DNA of 64,000 nucleotides, from assembly GCA_039000515.1 (NCBI GenBank), contig JBCFYV010000014.1, positions 1 through 64,000 on the forward strand. Reading direction: 5' to 3'. Shown here in pieces: positions 14,047 through 56,045 of this stretch. Position 1 is the first letter of the stretch. Each line of letters opens with the position of its first letter. A program made the position numbers and the translations under genes. This stretch comes from Timema cristinae. Lineage: Eukaryota; Arthropoda; Insecta; Phasmatodea; Timematidae. The notes under the pieces are model-generated. The model was not told the origin of the DNA and did not search any database. It was given only the letters and a program-made list of their open reading frames with translations.

Positions 14047-15099
14047 GGCCATAGCCAGGGGGATTTTGGAGGTTCAGACACCCCCCTTAAAAATTTAAAC
14101 AATATCAAAATTGAGATACAAGTAAAAATTTTAGGGGCTGTGTTTCCATAAAAAGCACTTCAGAGAGCTTCTAGAGGTGTTTAATATTTATATTTTTTTC
14201 TAGTCTTCGACAGCTATGATGTTTTGTTGCCATAAACACTTTAGATATTCTCTAGAAAGTGTTTAATATTTAGAATTTTTCCTAGCCTACGACAGTTAGG
14301 GTGTTATTTTTGCCATAAAAAAAACTTCGGGTAGTTTCTAGAGGTGTTTAATATTCATAAATTTTCCTACCCTTTTCACTTCAGATAGCTTATAGAGGGG
14401 TTAAATGTTTGGATATTTTCCCTAACCTTCAAAAGGGTTAGGGAAATATGTTCCCATAAAAAACACTTCAGATTAGCTTCTAGAGGTGTTTAATATCCAG
14501 AAATTTGCTAGCCTTCGGCAGTTAGGGGTTTATGGTGCCATAAAAACACTTCAAATAGCTTCTGGAAAGGGTTTTATATTTTGAATTTTTCCTATCCTAT
14601 AGCAGTTAAGGGGTTATGTTGCCATAAAATAAACACTTAATATAGCTTCTAGAGGTTTTAATATCTAGAAATTTTCCTAGCCTTTGGGGTTAGGGGGTTA
14701 GGGTGCCCCTAGAAAACATTTCATGTAGCTTCTAGAGGGGTTTTTAATATTTAGAATTTTTCCAAGCCTACGGCAGTTTTGGGGGCTATGTTGGGCCCCA
14801 AAAAGAAAAGACACTTCAGATAGCTTCTAGAGGTGTTTAATATTTAAAAAAAAATTTCCCAGCCTTCGGCAGTTATGGTGTTCTGGTTTAAAAGAAAACA
14901 CTTCAGATAGCTTCTAGAGGTGTTTAATATCTAGAATTGGACCCAGCCTTTGGCAATTAGGGGGTTATGTTGCCAAAACAACACTTCAGATAGCTTCTAA
15001 GAACTGTTTATCATTTGGGAATTTTTTCTAACTTTTTGAAAATTGGGGGATGTGCCCACCAACCCCACCCCCATGAATTTATTGACCTTGGCTACCATA
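14047..15099. mobile_element. Element made of ~100-bp tandem units
   Basis: About ten units between 14141 and 15050 share CACTTCAGATAGCTTCTAGA, GGTGTTTAATATTTAGAA, TTTTTCCTAGCCTTCGGCAG and TTAGGGGGTTATGTTGCC. The array is bounded by GGCCATAGCCAGGGGG on the left and CCCCCATGAATTTATTGACC, TTGGCTACC on the right, which are weakly inverted (ATAGCCA / GTAGCCA). This suggests a discrete mobile unit with internal tandem repeats rather than a satellite. The same units in reverse orientation occur at 21900-23560 and 24590-25170. Confidence 0.65.
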
Positions 15100-37123: not shown

Positions 37124-37590
37124 TAGTCTACTGCGAGAGTAGCGTGTTAATAGACCACACAGCCAATGAAGCGGGGTGTAGTCTCACTGCGAGAGTAGCG
37201 TGTTAGACCACGCAGCCAATGAAGCTGGTGTAGTCTACTGCGAGAGTAGCGTGTTAGACCACGCAACCAATGAAGCTGGTGTAGTCTACTGCGAGAGTAG
37301 TGTGTTAGACCACGCAGCCAATGAAGCTGGTGTAGTCTACTGCGAGAGTAGCGTGTTAGACCACGCAGCCAATGAAGCTGGTGTAGTCTACTGCGAGAGT
37401 AGCATGTTAGACCACACAGCCAATGAAGCGGGTGTAGTCTACTGCGAGAGTAGCGTGTTAGACCACACAGCCAATGAAGCCAGGTGTAGTCTACTGCGAG
37501 AGTAGCGTGTTAGACCACACAGCCAATGAAGCGGGTGTAGTCTACTGCGAGAGTAGCGTGTTAGACCACACAGCCAATGAAGCGGGTAAT
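37124..37590 (-). repeat. 51-bp tandem array made from a SINE tRNA-like head
   Basis: About nine near-identical units (plus strand: GTGTTAGACCACACAGCCAA, TGAAGCGGGTGTAGTCTACT, GCGAGAGTAGC). Reversed, each unit reads CATTGGCTGTGTGGTCTAAC, ACGCTACTCTCGCAGTAGAC: a tRNA-like A-box and anticodon-arm region, as in the head of family 2 SINEs. The unit is 17 codons long, so a plus-strand frame stays open (37200-37505). That frame is a by-product of the repeat length. Confidence 0.9.
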
Positions 37591-43510: not shown

Positions 43511-44440
43511 TTGATTGATTGATTCTTTATTTGGTTTATAAAGAGAGCCAAGTGGCTTGTACATATATAAACATCCTAGTATTGGCGTGGATCAAAACCA
43601 ATTAGTTTTAAACATTTAGGATAGTGAAAAAAGTGTACAGAAATTTATTAAGTGTCTTCATCTAGTCATAACTTACAAAATAAATTAGCAGGTTTTAACT
43701 ACCTATCATTATGATAACAATAATATAATATATATTTTTTTTTTAAATAATTGAAAAACTACATTAGTATGGCCCACATGTGTACATGTATGCAAACACA
43801 CATCATAATTTGGTAAACTGATAACAGCAAAAATATTTCAAATCCAAGCAATTCAAACACAAGCTACACAATTCTACACACAAAAAAAACGTGTGGCTCA
43901 TACGATATATAAAGTTGATTTAGTCTATATAATTTTCCAAAATATATTTCTTAACTTCACTTTTAAACCAGTTTAGGTTTTTATTTTTTATTTATTTTGG
44001 TATTTTATTAAAGCTTTTTAAATCAGGCTTCCTTAATGAAAAAATACCATATGTGGTTGTGTTAACTCAGTGCTGGAAAAAAATATTTTGACTTCTTGTT
44101 TGGTTTGTTCCCCTCTTTTCTTACTCCAAATTTTAAATTATTGTTAAATTGTTTATAAGTATATATACCATTACCACAGTATTAAAAAAAATGCTTCCTT
44201 TAATTTTAATATACCGAGCTTTTTATTTTTTCTTCATAATTCTTAGTTGAGGGTAGAAAATAAGTTTCTTATTGCTGCATTTTGCAACCTTATCAGTGGT
44301 TGAAAGTATTCCCCCGGACCACATTTAATTAGAACAGATGTGAGTGAATCAGAGCAATTTAGTACGTGTGGGGTAAATTTACATGAAAGTTTCTTTAGTA
44401 CCCCAATTGGAGCTCTAATTTGTTTACTTCCCTTACTTGT
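43511..44440 (-). pseudogene. Non-LTR retrotransposon, RT C-terminus and 3' end
   Basis: This is the downstream half of a minus-strand LINE split by the transposon at 44441-50074. The frame at 44440-44243 contains GVLKKLSCKFTPHVLNC and YFQPLIRLQNAAIRNLF, the thumb-side landmarks of Jockey/CR1-like reverse transcriptases (pattern G-V-L-x-x-L, then L-x-x-L-Q-x-x-A-I-R). Further down a stop-ridden frame has GLKVKLRNIFWKII (44000-43940), like the FKxKLKxYLLxN end of such ORFs. The element ends with AATAAAGAATCAATCAATCA (minus strand, 43530-43511), a poly(A)-signal-like AATAAA followed by an (AATC)n tail. Confidence 0.75.
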
Positions 44441-44780
44441 TAGTCCAGGGAATAGAGGCTGAAAAAGGGGCCTTACCTTACAAAAGGTCAAGTAGTTCTA
44501 ATTTTTTATATGTTATATAGGTTGGTCCCATGGCTCAAAATCCAAGTTTTTGACCTTCCCGCCCTTGTGCGTTCGCTGTGGCGCGCCAAAAACCGACGAA
44601 ATTCCAGTCGTTTTTCAGTTTATTGATCATATCGTTTTACCAATGCATCTTAGAGAGAAAAGGTTTAATTAAAAGTTGTAGAGTATTAAATTTTCTACAA
44701 CTTTTGTATTAAAAGTATTTTGGTAAAACTATTATGTAAGGAGTTACGCAGCATCAAAGTTACAAATTTTCATAAAAATT
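44441..44780 (+). repeat. Left terminal inverted repeat
   Basis: Matches the reverse complement of 49737-50074 with scattered differences and small gaps. The match extends outward past TTGGTCCCATGG through TATGTTATATAGG to TAGTCCAGGGAATAGAG. Confidence 0.88.
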
Positions 44781-45325
44781 GGTAAACATTGTTAAAAACG
44801 CTCCGCTCCTGTATTCCAGGAATTCGATTCAAGAGGTTGCGCGTACTTGTGTAAACAAACAAACGTAGGGGGAAGGAGAATGGAAGAGTGGCACCAGCAG
44901 GTGTTGTTCTCTCCCCTCCGACCCCCCCCCCCCTCCAACCTTCCCGATAGTATTCAAACCCTACGGTCACTACACCACTCTCAGTCATGTATAAACATTG
45001 TATCGGAACATGTGTGTTTTTGTAGACCGCCCTTGCTTTATATGTGACGGTAGTTTGAGTGGTGATGTTGTGTTGTTGTTGTTGTTGTTGTTGTGAAAGA
45101 GAGAGGAATTTAAACTATACTAGAAGCAAGCATACAACGAAAACAGCTCAATCATAAACATTATTTGAAAGACTTGAAACATGTAAGTGTACATAGTGCC
45201 TGCCAAATAAATTATATTAACGAAAAATTGATCAAGGCTTACTTTCGTCGTCGAGTGGTCCTCAGTCCACACAAACGCGATCAACTGGTGACGCATTCAC
45301 GTTCAAAGATCTTTTTCTTTTTGCA

Positions 45326-48300
45326 ATGAAAAAATAACTCCTGAGTTTATTGAAATCCAGAAAAAACTACCGATTTTCAGAAGAACATTAGCACATTTAG
45401 TGCAGATGGATACTTTAAGAGAGACTGTCTTGACAGCTGCCCAAAAAATGGGAGATGTAAGAAACTGTTAAGTGTGAGCAGATCTTGTAGCAGCTGACGC
45501 AATGTACCATGCAGTATGTCAAAAGAGTTTTATGGCAACAATGCACCAACTAGAGAAAAAAGAGGTTATCGACCTGCAACTGCAGTAGAAGAAGCGATGG
45601 AAAACATATATGCCTACCTTGCTGATAATTCAGATGAGTTTCAGTTTTCTCTTCAAGAACTGATGGAGCAAATAGAAGGAGATTTCCGCCCAGACATAAG
45701 AACTGTGAAAGATCGTCTCTTTAAAAAATATGGAAGTGTCATTATAATTGCAGAAACATCCAACAAAATCACAGTGGTTTGTTTAAAAAATACAGGTTTT
45801 AAAATTCTCTCTGATAATTGGTATGAGAACAGAAAGAAAGATCCCGAAGAAGAACGCCTGAGCGTAGTTAAAGCGGCCGCAGCAATCATTCAGGAAGACA
45901 TCCGCTCACAAATTTACACCACAACACAATACCCTCCATCAGATACATTTTTAAGTGACATTGAAGACGTCATTCCACAGTCATTACTATCATTTTTCCA
46001 AACTGTTGTGATTACCAATAAAAGGGGATCCTTGAAAAAATGGAAAAAAAAAATGTATCGCTCTATCACATGCTGTTATTTCAGCTGCTAGACCTCGTTC
46101 ATTTTTATCCTCTATGCTGACAGGGGTGAGTGTGTACTTGTATAACAAGTTTGGGTCAAGGCAACTGATTGATATCCTATCTGCACTTGGTTTTTCATCA
46201 AGTCATCACGAGGCAGTACTACTTGAGATGTCAACGGTACTGCAACCCAACGTTCAGTTGATTGATAAATCAGCTACTGATGTATTTATGCAATTTATCT
46301 TTGATAATGCAGATTTTAACGTTAATACCCTTGATGGTCTCAATACGTTCCATGCAATGGGGGGAATTATGCCAATAATCCAGCAACCGCTGTAACCGCT
46401 GAAGAACCTGTGAAATGCTTGAAAAAAATAACTTCATCTGACCTTGTCCAGCAAGCAGGTATGATCCAAAGCTTTCAAAAGAATGAAGCTGGTGGCTTGA
46501 GCAGCATTGATAATCAGGATCTTGAAATTCTTTGCCCGATTGGAAACAATATCAAATCATCTAGTGCTGATATAATATGGCTCTATGGCAAATCGACCAG
46601 CATGTCTCTTCCTGGATGGAGCGGTTTTATGGAGCAAGCAACTTCTAAAAGAGAAAGCAAACGCTCAAAAATCATATATCTTCCTTTTATAAATGCCCCT
46701 CCAAGTCAGCATGATACAGTGTACACGTCTCTTCTTGGGCCAACCAGAGATGCAAGAATTTAGATCAGAAAACGTGTTTCGTGACATACGATCAGCCCCT
46801 TTATATAAAGGCAAAAGGAATTCTTCACAGTGGTAAAACCCCTGAATTGGATAACGTCATTGTGAGACTTGGGGGGTTTCATCTATTAATGTCTTTTATG
46901 GGAGCTATTGAAGTAATAATGGCTGGGAGGGGTCTAAAAGATCTGTTTGGCTGTATTTTTGCTGAAAACAGCATCACAACAATCATGTCTGGGCATGCTT
47001 ATTCCAGGGCAATAAGAGCACATTTATTGGCCCACCAGGCATTAGCCACTTTGGGTGTCGAAAGAATTGACTTTTCAGAGGAAGATATAGATGTGTTGGA
47101 AAACTTACTCACTTGGACCGATCTGTTGTACTAACAGCTGACAAAAGGGAGGAGTTCCAAAGGGTTGAGAATAAGTTTCATGAAGCACTTGTTCACCTGC
47201 AAAGTAATGGGCCAACTGCACAGCTATGGATACAGTATTTGAAAATGGTGTCACTGGTGAAAAAGTTCATCGAAGCAGAAAGGATGGGTAATTGGTCACT
47301 CCACATTCAGACTGTGAAGCAAATGATTCCATTCATTCACGCAGCCAGGCATTTATATTACGCTAACTGCGCTCACTTTTATCTCCAAGATATGTGCAAC
47401 TTGCAGGAAATGATGGACCCTGAAGAGTATATCCGATTCACAACAAAAGGCTACTTTACCATTAGGAGATCATAAAAGTTTTGGTCAGGCATATGGTTGG
47501 ACATGACCATTGAGCAAACCATGATGAAGAATATGAAAAGTATTGGTGGACTTACTCATGGACGAGGAATGTCTGAAAGCGTACTTATGAGATGGACATT
47601 GGGTATGGTAGGCCTTCAGAACATTTGTGAAGAAGTAGACAAATATACAGACACAATTTCAGTTAAATCCGAACAACACATTGATATGAGGCGAACCCAC
47701 ATGGAAAGAGACGACAGAGATGTGGGCAAGATCAAAAATTGGCTGTCGACACATTCTCCTTTTCCAGTGATTGATGTGGTTATATCAATTAGTTCTGGTG
47801 TCGTAGTCAGCGAAAAAGTGAATTGCCACTTATCACAAGCATTTGGGATAGCAGCAGTTTCCAGTATTGTTGGTGGTAATTTTGGATCTTTGAAATTGAA
47901 AAGGAGCAACAAGGTGGTGACATTAACATCTGAGATCAACTTTTTGAAAGTAGGGGATAATAAAGTGACAATTGACCCTCTGACACTTTTTCAAAGAATT
48001 TGCATTGCCAAGCAGACACCGAAAGATTTGGAAGAGTTTTTCAAATATGAACTGGCTCCTTACCCAATGTCCCTTTTTTCAGGAGACGGGATGCGTAAGG
48101 GTACAAAATCATATCTGTATTCCGCATTTTCATCATTACCAAACACAACCAAACTTCCACCCAATCGAACTGCAGTGGTAGAGGGTGGATTCCTTCTCCA
48201 CAAGGTTTTATGGAGTAGAACTGACAGTTTCCATGAAGTTTGTAAAAGGTATGTTAAATTCGTTCGTGATCATTATGGAGCAAACGTTGTGGTCATTTTT

Positions 48301-49370
48301 GATGGTTATCCTCTTGTTCCTGAGTTGAGCAGTACTAAAAGTGCTGAAAGGTACAGAAGGTGTCATGTGAATGCTTCAAGTGATGTCATTTTTGATGGAT
48401 CACCAATCGCTCAAGTGCCAAAGGAAAAATTCCTAGAGAACGAAAATAACAAACTTCGCTTTATTTTACTCCTAAAGGAAACGCTCATTCAAGACAATGT
48501 AACTGTGAAGCAGGCAGTGGAACATCTGCTATATCCCTCGCTACAGAATATGATGCTGTGGAGATCATCGGGGAGGACATTGATTTGCTAGTTCTCTTGA
48601 CAACTTTGGCTCAAGATCTCCCCATTTACTTCCAAAAACCTGGAAGAGGTGGTGCTTCACATCATCCTACAACTACTCAGCACCTGAAAATCTACTTCTT
48701 CTTCACGCTTTGAGTGGGTGCGACACCTCATCGTCCCTATTTGGATTTGGAAAAACCAAATTCTGCACTGTTTTAGAACAAACCAGCATTGCATGAACTT
48801 ACAAGGATCTTTAAAGATCCTAACGCCAGTTTTCAACCATTTCTGAAGCAGGAGAGCGTATACTTCTTGCTCTGTATAGTGGTGACAGGGCCACAACATT
48901 AGATGCTTTGCGCTATCAGCTATTCTCCAAATCTTCTACTGGCAGTAAGATAAATCTTTCAAAGCTGCCACAGACATGTGATGCTAGCTATGTACCATGT
49001 CTTCCGCACCTATCACCAAGTTCACACATGGATGGGCCAACTGAAAAACCCTCTGGATTGGGGATGGAGGAAGGACAGTAAAGGACTTGTTCCTATTAAA
49101 ACCACCACAGATCCATCTTCTCAGTCAATCCTGACCTACATTTCCTGTCAGTGCAGGAAAGGATGCACTAAGGCCTGCAGTTGTAGAAAGGCCGCTCTCA
49201 AGTGCTCCATAATTTGTAAAAACTGTTGTGGACAAACCTGTGACAATAAAGTGGACATCATAATAAATGACAATGAAGAAGACGATCCAACTGAACTGCT
49301 GATGGAAGAAGTCGAGGAGGAACTAGCTGAGCCTTCCAAGCCACACAAAACTAAACGTAGAAAATTATAA
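45326..49370 (+). pseudogene. Large transposon-borne protein with FEN/PIN-like motifs and C-terminal CXC domain
   Basis: About 1,340 codons when all frames are followed. N-terminal landmarks: ADLVAADAMYHAVCQ (45478-), preceded by stops at 45469 and 45475. Middle: ARPRSFLSSMLTGVSVYLYN, LGGFHLLMSFMGAIEVIMAG, SGHAYSRAIRAHLLAHQAL, FIHAARHLYYANCAHFYL, IEQTMMKNMKSIGGLTHGRG. Then nuclease-type motifs: VVIFDGYP (48290-48313), GEDIDLLVLL (about 48569-48598), HALSGCDTSSSLFG (about 48705-48746). Their acidic residues and order match FEN1/XPG-type flap endonucleases (FDGxP, D-x-D, GCD). The acidic motif expected between the first two is damaged. C-terminus: CQCRKGCTKACSCRKAALKC then CKNCCGQTCDN, a tesmin/TSO1-like CXC zinc domain, and an acidic tail ending KTKRRKL. 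Frame breaks lie near 46040 (A-run), 46360 (G-run), 46735, 47110, 48525 and more than one in 48650-48980; an in-frame stop lies at 47473. I recognise the family as large 'uncharacterized' proteins of invertebrates. This copy is dead. Confidence 0.85.
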
Positions 49371-49736
49371 ATTTTCTAAATTGTAAGTATTATTGTTATT
49401 ACCGTTATTATATACAGATATATACATAATAATAAAAATTTCTTTTTATTATTTTACTATAGGCCTACTATTATTATTATGCATTTTATTTTTAATTAAA
49501 GTTGATTGGATTTACATAAAGAAACTCTTTTAACTAACACCTCTAGCTATACTCAAATTAGCATAAATATTCACCTTATAACCCTTCAAAGCAGCGTAGC
49601 TCCTTTGTTTAGTCTAAGACAATATTTTTTTGTTTTAATCTTATGGCAAATTTAATGTCTTACAACTTGTATTCAAGACATTTTTCTCCATGACGTACCG
49701 TTCTGGAGATATAATAAAAAAAAAATCGACTAAACT

Positions 49737-50074
49737 TTTTAAAAATTAGCAATTTTATGAAAAATATATATAACTTTGATGCTGCGTAACTCTTTACATA
49801 ATAGTTTTCAAAAAAGTTTCATATAAAAGTTGTAGCAAATTTAATATTCTACAACTTTTAGATTACAAGCTTTCCTAAGATGCATTGGTAAAACGATATG
49901 ACCAATCAACTGAAAAATGACCGGAATTTCGTCGTTTTTGGCGCGCCACAGCGAACGCACAAGGGCGGGGAGGTCAAAAACTTGGATTATAAACCATGGG
50001 ACCAACCTATATAACATATCAAAAAATCAGTACTTGATCTTTTGTAAGGTAATATGTCTCTATTCCCTGGACTA
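49737..50074 (-). repeat. Right terminal inverted repeat
   Basis: Inverted partner of 44441-44780. The 49917-50111 open frame crosses its outer end and is not a gene. Confidence 0.88.
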
Positions 50075-50535
50075 TGTGTCAACATTTGATCACCAAAACT
50101 TATATGTGTAGTTTATAATTGGTCTTTCCTTATTTCCCGCCTAGTAAAGCTAATGTAGTTTGATTTCTGAAGATTTAATGTAAGTTTATCGAGTTTTAAC
50201 CAAGAATGTAACAATTTTATGTCCGAATGAATATTATCTATTATAGTTTAAAGTTTTCCCCAATATAAAATAAGCTTGTGTCATCTACATAGTTGCAAAT
50301 GACCCTCAAAATGTACCTGGAAAATATCATTAACATATATAAGAAACATAATGGGTCCAATTACTGAAACTTGTGCGACTCCACATGTTACAGTTTGCAT
50401 CATACTTTCATGGTTATTTAGGAGAGTAGGCCTATATTTTATATATTGTTTATATAATATATATCTAGGAGAGTAGGCCTATATTTTATATATTGTTTTC
50501 TGTCTGTGATATAACTGTTAAACCATTCAATCGTG
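50075..50535 (-). pseudogene. Non-LTR reverse transcriptase, palm region
   Basis: Upstream half of the LINE that continues at 43511-44440. Minus-strand reading: IEWFNSYITDRKQYIKY (50525-50475), TVTCGVAQVSVIGPIMFLIY with N-D-I (G-V-P-Q-G-S-x-L-G-P motif, 50390-50325), YVDDTSLFYIG (catalytic Y-x-D-D, 50300-50265), then WLKLDKLTLNLQKSNYISF (50205-50150). Frameshifts and stops separate these pieces. A 48-bp tandem duplication (50420-50451 repeated at 50468-50499) interrupts it. Upstream of 50535 the homology fades. Confidence 0.82.
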
Positions 50536-53186: not shown

Positions 53187-54240
53187 TTAAAGTATGGTAG
53201 AAATATATTTCACTTCAATTTCACACTCATTTACTCTTTCACGAATATAGTGGTATTTAATGTCAATGTGTTTAGTACGTTTGGGGCGGACCGGATTCTT
53301 TACCAATTGAATCGCAGCTTGATTATCGACATGCAGAACAGTTGCACCATTACATGAACATCTAATATCGTTAAGTATTTGTATCAGCCATATGGCTTCT
53401 TTTTCAGCTGAGGCTACCAAAACATATTAGGCTTCGGTTGTACTGGTAGCTACACTCCTTTGCCTTTGAGAGGACCAGCTAACTGGCCCATTTTCAAATA
53501 CATAAATATATCCCATAGTTGAACAACGTGTTTTTTATCCTTTCCATACTCGACATCGGAGTAGCCTTGTAGACTGGCTTCCCTATCGCTGCTTTTGTAC
53601 GTTATACCCAAATCTAGAGTGCTTTTAAATATTTAAAGATCATTTTTACAGAATTCCAATTATCACAACCATGGTTACTTAAATATCTACTCACTGCACT
53701 AACAGCAAACGCCAAATCTGGACGTGAAACAATTACTGTCAAGAACATATGAGAACCTACTGCGCCTCTATATGGCACATTCGTTACTGCGTTTTAGTCA
53801 ACTAATGGACATAATACTGTGTGTGGGTCAATAGGCATGCTTAGGGTTTGTGCTTCATCATTCCATACTTTTCAATAATCATTTTTGCATAGGAGCTTTG
53901 GTGGATTCACATTATTTTGTTGATTTGATCTCTTTTTATTTGTAAGCCTACAAAACAACTTGTATCACCTATCGTAATCGTAAATGAATCATTAAATCTT
54001 TAAATATATTCTAATACTTTGATTGATTCAGACGCTATGAGTCCATAATCAACAAACAAGGCTAAAAATAATATCACTCAATCAATCATAATAGTATAGA
54101 TACATTTTTCAAATTCAGTCGGTATTCAGTTGAACTTTTACAAAAACTGAGAAACTTTACGTTCCAACAATAGACACCTTAAAATGATTTTTTGCAATTC
54201 ACACATCACTTCACTTTTCCATCACCCCGATTGTTGAAGT
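53187..54240 (-). pseudogene. Copia RT (C-terminal half) and RNase H
   Basis: RNase H: VASAEKEAIWLIQIL, VLHVDNQAAIQLVKNPV, RTKHIDIKYHYIRERV (53420-53187), preceded by GYIYVFENGPVSWSSQRQRS and VATSTTEA. RT side, in pieces: LFVDYGLIASES (Y-V-D-D region, 54055-54020), GDTSCFVGLQIKRDQINKI (53970-53915), SSYAKMIIEKYGMM. The catalytic DD has changed to DY, and stops are frequent, so it is inactive. Confidence 0.85.
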
Positions 54241-54249
54241 GAAGGAGAA

Positions 54250-55675
54250 AATGGGGTACTCCCTCCTCGATGTCCACGTAGGTTGGCTAGAACAGCTCGG
54301 TCAGCTGTCGGATGACCTCAGGTGTCTTCTTGACTGGAAGGAGATTTGCACGCTCCAGGCGTTAGACTCGTGGGTTTTTATCGCTGGTATAAGTAAGCGA
54401 TGAGGGAGAGAATTGGAAGGGTTGGGGGATTGTTGAGGGGTTGGCTAGCTAGGTCTCAGAGGGGACAGGTGACCTGGGTGGTAAAAGTAGTCAAGGTACT
54501 ATTTGGTGGTGGGAGTGACGTTAAAAGAGAGGGGGATGTCGTGTGGTCCACGTTGTCATGGAGCGGTGAAGGACCAGGGTGATCCTGGTGGGAGGAAATG
54601 GGGAGTAAGGTCTTTTAGGGTGTGAGAAGTGAAAGAGTTGGCTGGGATAGGTTGCTACGGAGTTCAGCTAGGGCCTGCAAAGGAGGAAGTGTATTAACCG
54701 GATGTTGGTTTGGAGTGGTTTCAGGTTGGAAAGGTATTCCGGAATAGCCCTTCCTCCTCTACCCGAAACGTTGGGTGTAAACCATTGGTTGCTGGGAGGA
54801 TGATTGGAGCTTGGCAGAGCTCCATAAATATGGGAATGGAATGAGGGTGAAGGAAGGAGCTTGGCGAAGAGTCACGATGAGTAGTGTGGAGCCCTGAGTA
54901 GGGGGAAAGGGGCAATAAGGGGCTCAATGAAGAGCCCAGTTGGAGTAGGAGGCTAGTGAAGAGTAGCGGATACTGGTGTAAATTTGGAGTAAGGGGAAGG
55001 GGAAATAGGGAGATCGGAGAAGAGTTGTGGTGAGTGGTGGGGAGCTGGAGTAGGGCGAAGGGGGAACATAAGCTTCAATCGAGAGTCATGTTGAGCTGTG
55101 TGAGCTGGAGTGGCCCCAGAGGGAATAGGGGGCTTGGTGAAGATTCGCAGTGAGTGGTGAGGGACTGGAACAGGGGAAAGGGGGAATAGAGGCTCAGCAA
55201 AGAGTCACGGTGAGTGGTGCGGATCTAGAGTAACGGGGAAGAATAATAAAAGACATGGACGTTGGTCCAAAAGAAAACACACTGGCGTGGTAGACACCCG
55301 TTTAGTCACAGAAGGGGATGTTGCTAGAAAGGTGCTGAGGCAACGATTGATGCAGGCCTACTCACCGTTCTCTTTTATTCGGTCCTATCGGGTCAATTTG
55401 GGGAGTCTCGGTCCAAGCCGTGTGAACCCCTAGCAGGTAGCAAAGCTAGGGAGGGTGTTGGTGCGTGGTGACTGGCCACGAAGTAGGGGTGGTTTTGGTG
55501 GAGAGGGCTGGAACTTGACGAATGGTTACGAGGCTGTTCTGCCTTAAAAAGGGGGTGAGGAGGGTTTATAGTAAGCGTGAAGTGAGCGTAAAGCTTTAGG
55601 AGTGCAAGAGGGCTGTAATACAGAGAGTAAGCAAAGGAGGGGGTAACAACTTTTATCACAATCGATTATCACTCC
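54250..55675. other. Insert 1 in copia RT: GC-richer block with a ~61-bp minisatellite
   Basis: It interrupts the copia RT just after the codons of FDVKTAFLHGNLKEELFMAI-S-E-G-V. Base composition is clearly G-rich compared with its surroundings. On the minus strand, 54370-54260 reads LERANLLPVKKTPEVIRQL, T-E-L-F, stop, P-T-Y-V-D-I-E-E-G, protein-like but unrecognised. The rest is mostly the minisatellite. Insert ends are approximate and no terminal repeats were identified. Confidence 0.55.
54860..55240 (+). repeat. ~61-bp G-rich minisatellite
   Basis: Six or seven diverged units share GAAGAGTCACGGTGAGTGG, TGGGGAGCTGGAGTAGGG, GAAAGGGGGAATAGGGGGCT. Start points lie near 54866, 54958, 55019, 55080, 55139 and 55199. 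Confidence 0.75.
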
Positions 55676-56045
55676 CTCCGAAATCGCCATGAAGAGCTCC
55701 TCCTTCAAATTGCCGTGTAAAAAAGCGGTCTTGACGTCAAACTTGGTGAGTTTAAAGTTATTTTGGGCTACAACACCCAAGAAAACGCGCAGAGAAGCAT
55801 ATCTGATGACCGGTAAAAAAAAGTCTCAGTGTAATCAACACCTTTTTTCTGTTGAAAACACCGTGCGACAAGACGTACTTTATATCGCATCATTCCACCA
55901 TCTCTATCAAGCATAATCTTGATAACCACATTTTGAATCAATCAACTTCTTCTTTGGGTCTCCTTTAATAACGTGACAAGTTCCATTTTTTTTCATGTGA
56001 TTGCAATCCCTCCAGTATTGCTTCCGACCACTTTGTTTTGTCATG
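55676..56045 (-). pseudogene. Copia RT, N-terminal half
   Basis: Minus-strand pieces: DKTKWSEAILEGLQSHEKN, HVIKGDPKKKLIDSK, ETFFPVIRYASLRVFLGVV, FKLTKFDVKTAFLHGNLKEE. These match the W-x-x-A-x-x-E-E-x and F-A-P-V-V-R-x-x-S-x-R, FDVKTAFLxGxLxEE region of copia polyproteins. The frame continues beyond insert 1 at 54240. Confidence 0.85.

Follow-up and report, generated by a model that had tools for sequence, protein, structure and literature searches.

The first 64,000 nt of the Timema cristinae contig JBCFYV010000014.1 (hereafter the window; the start of contig C14, 175,898 bases) contain a 5634-bp transposon at positions 44441..50074. We consider it very probable that this is an AcademX-type DNA transposon of the Academ superfamily, once autonomous and now decayed, whose protein combined a DDE transposase with a FEN-type nuclease. 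An initial annotation, made from the letters alone, had read the interior gene as transposon cargo with a FEN/XPG-type nuclease domain and proposed a new class of element lacking a known transposase; the first part of this reading stood, the second did not. Matched to AcademX by its description, the element is better placed as a new family of an already named group than as a new class.

The frames of the window gene are interrupted by stops and frameshifts in several places, and no full protein is encoded. We therefore relied on relatives. When we queried with the read-through protein, scoring its region 420-1150, 160 of the 7987 candidates scored were homologues at E ≤ 0.001, and 120 of these were listed. 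The closest relative among those listed, P0001, shares 81% identity with the query region and is on record as a 1475-aa protein with an open frame. The features placed with the help of such relatives and of other copies are as follows.

44438..44440, no strand: left copy of the target site duplication (TSD), TGT; 3-bp match at 10 of 12 independent loci
44441..44798, plus strand: left terminal inverted repeat (TIR), tip TAGTCCAGGGAATAGAG; repeat comparison and end alignment of copies
45025..46052, plus strand: N-terminal remnant (Cys-rich fingers and following part) with several stops; aligned to P0001 residues 7-352
46045..47560, plus strand: DDE (RNase H-like) transposase region in several broken frames; position by alignment, fold from P0001
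46303-46305, plus strand: first Asp, GAT, of the DNAD motif; still encoded in the window copy
46790-46792, plus strand: second Asp, GAT, of DQPLY; still encoded in the window copy
47512-47514, plus strand: Glu, GAG, of DMTIEQ; still encoded in the window copy
48100..49060, plus strand: FEN/EXO1-like (PIN-fold) nuclease domain, broken; profile alignment and fold
48181-48183, plus strand: Glu replacing the first catalytic Asp; alignment to relatives
48301-48303, plus strand: Asp of FDGYP; alignment to relatives
48520/48521, plus strand: 22-nt deletion removing both Asp of EDAD; comparison of copies
48576-48578 and 48582-48584, plus strand: the two Asp of GEDIDLL; alignment to relatives
48722-48724, plus strand: Asp of GCDT; alignment to relatives
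49146..49247, plus strand: C-terminal CXC-like cysteine-rich stretch; alignment, with nearly invariant Cys columns in relatives
49736..50074, minus strand: right TIR, ending in CTCTATTCCCTGGACTA; repeat comparison and end alignment of copies
50075..50077, no strand: right copy of the TSD, TGT; flank comparison

Terminal repeats and target site duplications

The inverted repeats lie exactly at the borders first proposed for them and are ∼340–360 bp long, the left one (44441-44798) matching the right one (49736-50074) with 84% identity over query positions 1-358. Searching the 1.29-Gb assembly with the left end of the element gave at least 42 matching rows at E ≤ 0.001, 40 of them long (40 of 53 candidates scored). 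Twenty stretches were fetched, and their ends were compared where both repeats were present. We dropped duplicates of the same insertion (L009, which is the window locus; L017, L019 and L020, identical to L016; L027, identical to L018) as well as the one-ended L024, L025, L026 and L028, and left out a pair of ends on C558 that lie 15.7 kb apart, which resulted in 12 independent paired loci. Identical 3-bp flanks were present at 10 of them, the exceptions being L010 and L016, compared to a mean of 1.66 and a maximum of 7 in shuffles (n = 20,000). The alignment of copy borders that the initial annotation had suggested as a check thus yielded a fixed duplication of 3 bp. None of the 12 loci showed a flank match over 4, 5 or 6 bp, ruling out a TSD of 4 bp or longer. 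Inverted ends together with a TSD of fixed length at independent loci characterize a cut-and-paste TIR transposon, and both were found here.

With P0001, we also found a further, related family in this genome (44–45% identity), with repeats of ∼380–390 bp and the tip TAGTCCAGTCAAC. Two of its copies, L049 and L050, share 98.5% identity and have TAA and GTA, respectively, as TSDs; a third (L045 with L051) carries TAG, giving a 3-bp TSD at all three loci. The tip TAGTCCAG was further present at C7605:811373 and C1:70036186, in each case at the single end fetched or found, and L035 showed a single tip-like end only. At C7605:811967 and C12:16092660, blastn detected no repeat pair within 1.75–2 kb outside the matches; none was seen at L042, where the flank stops short of the place at which an end would be expected.

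The coding remnants accompany the repeats at all 12 independent loci and also in the related family, whose repeats have only the tip in common with those of the window family. This confirms that the gene is transposon-borne and argues against a passenger or host gene caught between unrelated inverted repeats, an explanation to which we give almost no credence even though relatives among the matches listed are annotated as ordinary uncharacterized genes in several animal genomes.

Two of the fetched stretches showed additional features. The window element recurs at G000:C1:64959484-64965923 (L009) with 99.2% identity and at an identical insertion site; contig C14 may therefore represent an alternative haplotype of this region of the C1 chromosome, or a second copy of it. 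L018 contains an insert of ∼4 kb (L018:801-4802) with open reading frames of 310 and 563 codons; at its junction, 14 bp of the element are found on both sides, the pattern expected if a further mobile element had landed there and duplicated its target.

A DDE transposase domain in the same protein

The domain upstream of the nuclease in P0001 was predicted to adopt an RNase H fold, for which the best matches among solved structures were the P-element, Hermes, Transib and RAG recombinases. The DDE acids, D437, D602 and E844 in P0001 numbering, were invariant among the aligned relatives. A plain Foldseek search with this upstream part gave no transposase hit at E ≤ 0.001; RAG1 (rank 6) and Transib (rank 18) appeared in rows at chance level. 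The case for a DDE enzyme therefore rests on the solved-structure matches, the strand order and the invariant acids. Pfam gave no meaningful match on the broken frames of the window; DUF6589, a family of unknown function, covered the transposase region above cut-off in two of the six relatives scanned.

The initial annotation had seen no DDE signature and hence no known transposase, and had named a second, known transposase gene in intact copies as grounds for giving up its proposal. In substance such an enzyme was found in the open-frame relatives, encoded within the gene itself rather than by a second one. Given how the upstream region folds, we rejected a new class without a transposase.

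The nuclease domain and the CXC-like tail

The motifs FDGYP, GEDIDLLVLL and HALSGCDT occupy one reading frame apiece in the window, all different. They had been proposed to fall on the metal-binding acids of flap nucleases, and they do: weakly by profile alignment with EXO1 (E 0.04), strongly by fold. In the suggested fold prediction, the motif-bearing part clearly adopted an EXO1/FEN1-like fold, at ∼15% identity in the structural alignments. In the relative P0025, the acids D741, D781, D855, D857, D880, D882 and D937 were invariant or nearly so among 81 sequences, and the nuclease acids were in register with EXO1 where aligned, their positions being matched by FEN1 residue numbering. Both marks of the PIN/FEN superfamily, the fold and the positions of the metal-binding acids, are thus present, with Glu for the first acid and two acids deleted in the window copy.

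The cysteine-rich tail had been called a tesmin/TSO1-like CXC domain. The stretch itself and its nearly invariant Cys columns in relatives bear this out in part, while none of the CXC models in Pfam scored above cut-off in three fragments, the nearest approach being preSET_CXC with E 0.47 in one of them. Source names containing CXC ("Tesmin/TSO1-like CXC domain-containing") occurred in 11 of the 120 relatives listed.

Relatives of the transposon protein

A second search, with P0112 residues 390-900, returned 519 homologues, of which the best 120 were listed. The named hosts among the matches listed include ants, beetles, moths, butterflies, an aphid, a whitefly, thrips, a soft coral and a rust fungus. 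Searching viral contigs with alignment A1 gave 88 pattern matches and no relatives. Three records from the thrips Frankliniella fusca (P0133, P0144 and P0147) match the transposon protein across the whole query region but bear gene names that have no relation to it (elongation factor 4, CaM kinase-like and glycerophosphodiester phosphodiesterase); they are apparently fusions or mislabels. A large and widespread set of proteins, often annotated as "uncharacterized" or "Tesmin/TSO1-like CXC domain-containing", are thus shown to be related to a transposon protein, and annotators can take them out of host gene sets.

Lesions shared between copies

The window copy is dead, as are most of the other copies examined. 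Among the copies that cover the position, the Glu that replaces the first nuclease Asp is shared only with L009, the same insertion. The 22-nt deletion, by which the window copy lost both Asp of EDAD and its frame, is present in identical form at 5 of the 12 independent loci (window, L010, L016, L018 and L021). At another five (L011, L012, L013, L015 and L022), GGT replaces GAT at the second Asp of the same motif, and the remaining two (L014 and L023) retain GAT. A 1.47-kb internal deletion (element positions 572 to 2043), which takes out the N-terminus and the region of the first Asp, was found at six loci (L011, L012, L013, L015, L016 and L022). L016 unites it with the 22-nt deletion, which suggests exchange between subfamilies. 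No element frame longer than 390 codons was found in the fetched copies of the window family, the 563-codon frame of L018 belonging to its insert.

Separate insertions bearing identical lesions mean that copies already defective were multiplied, most simply by protein that intact copies supplied, and are compatible with the nuclease being either needed or dispensable. They also bear on the proposal that the FEN/PIN nuclease is itself the transposition catalyst, in a new class of element with no DDE enzyme. The near-invariance of the nuclease acids across 81 aligned relatives suggests that the nuclease matters to these elements, and the negative Foldseek result for the upstream part also speaks for this view. 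We nevertheless regard it as highly improbable, given the DDE-fold domain with invariant acids in the same protein; that 10 of 12 independent copies multiplied despite one or the other nuclease-motif lesion is a weak argument against it, as supply in trans would explain this too.

Setting in the window

The joined flanks of the element contain, on the minus strand and in different broken frames, pieces recognized by eye as LINE reverse transcriptase, which makes the suggested location inside a long interspersed nuclear element plausible. Elsewhere, the window carries a 51-bp unit in nine tandem copies (37124-37587, 95% matches), tandem arrays of 82–84-bp units (14141-14999, 71–75% matches) and, at 54001-56000, a local rise in G+C (0.47) with strong GC skew (0.31), the highest among the 2-kb steps.

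Proposed mechanism

Because of its predicted fold with conserved acids, its inverted ends and its duplications, the element most likely moves by DDE-catalysed cut-and-paste transposition. Its single long polypeptide, of 1475 aa in P0001, starts with Cys-rich fingers, followed by a DDE/RNase H-fold domain that includes a helical insert, by the FEN/EXO1-type nuclease and by the CXC-like tail. In this model, the DDE domain would excise the element at its TAGTCCAG tips and join it to the target with a 3-bp stagger, leaving the 3-bp duplication. The nuclease would trim branched or flapped intermediates, at the element ends or in the gap left, as an accessory rather than as the strand-transfer catalyst. 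The window copy, unable to make the protein, was presumably moved by protein from intact copies. More tentatively, and in our view rather doubtfully, the flap nuclease might carry out a required step, for example second-strand cleavage or the trimming of 5′ flaps where the element ends; if so, it would help to set the 3-bp duplication in a transposition reaction with two catalysts. The role of the nuclease in Academ transposition becomes testable on defined ends.

Comparison with known systems

The AcademX lineage of the Academ superfamily is attributed to Kojima (2020, Mob DNA 11:15), according to whom Academ elements reportedly often encode an XPG nuclease. In PMC10045372, AcademX is a DDE lineage with a nuclease and TSDs of 3 or 4 bp, AcademH has TSDs of 9 or 10 bp, and this difference is tied to helicase versus nuclease. 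The window element agrees with AcademX in its DDE transposase domain (from P0001, with the acids still encoded in the window copy), in an XPG/FEN-type nuclease that the element also encodes, although the window copy has it in broken form, and in a 3-bp TSD at 10 of 12 loci and at all three loci of the related family. Its 5634 bp lie within the Academ range reported in PMC10294476, which gives a mean of 5565 bp in bivalves. No feature tested differed from AcademX, in a comparison by description rather than by reference sequence; the AcademX descriptions consulted do not mention a CXC-like tail, which is present here.

A separate, not yet named DDE-plus-FEN superfamily outside Academ would imply the same mechanism and a different family. 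Named Academ elements were compared by description only, "Academ" is absent from the source names printed among the matches listed (most rows being nameless), and the sole Pfam entry for the transposase region is DUF6589. We still consider such a superfamily unlikely, as nuclease content and TSD length both agree with the AcademX description (PMC10045372) and the bivalve mean is close to the length found here (PMC10294476). AcademX therefore remains our preferred assignment. AcademH, by the same literature, shares the DDE transposase and the superfamily, but has a helicase and a 9–10-bp TSD where the window element has a nuclease and 3 bp. Pfam scans of six relatives detected no helicase domain at E ≤ 1, and what follows the transposase has the fold of a nuclease; the missing helicase and the TSD length rule out AcademH. 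The Kolobok lineages KolobokE, KolobokD and KolobokP, with accessory nucleases (PMC9587614), likewise add a nuclease to a DDE transposon, but their nucleases have other folds and the transposons belong to another superfamily.

P-element and hAT (Hermes) transposases likewise have an RNase H-like DDE fold in which a helical insert precedes the last Glu; neither was matched by sequence when solved structures were searched. P-element and hAT transposons make 8-bp duplications, and to our knowledge their transposases have no FEN domain. With FEN1, EXO1 and XPG, the window element shares the nuclease fold and the positions of the metal-binding acids, but here, at ∼15% identity in structural alignments, the nuclease is a domain of a transposon protein, in which a P-element/RAG-like DDE core is fused to a FEN-type nuclease.
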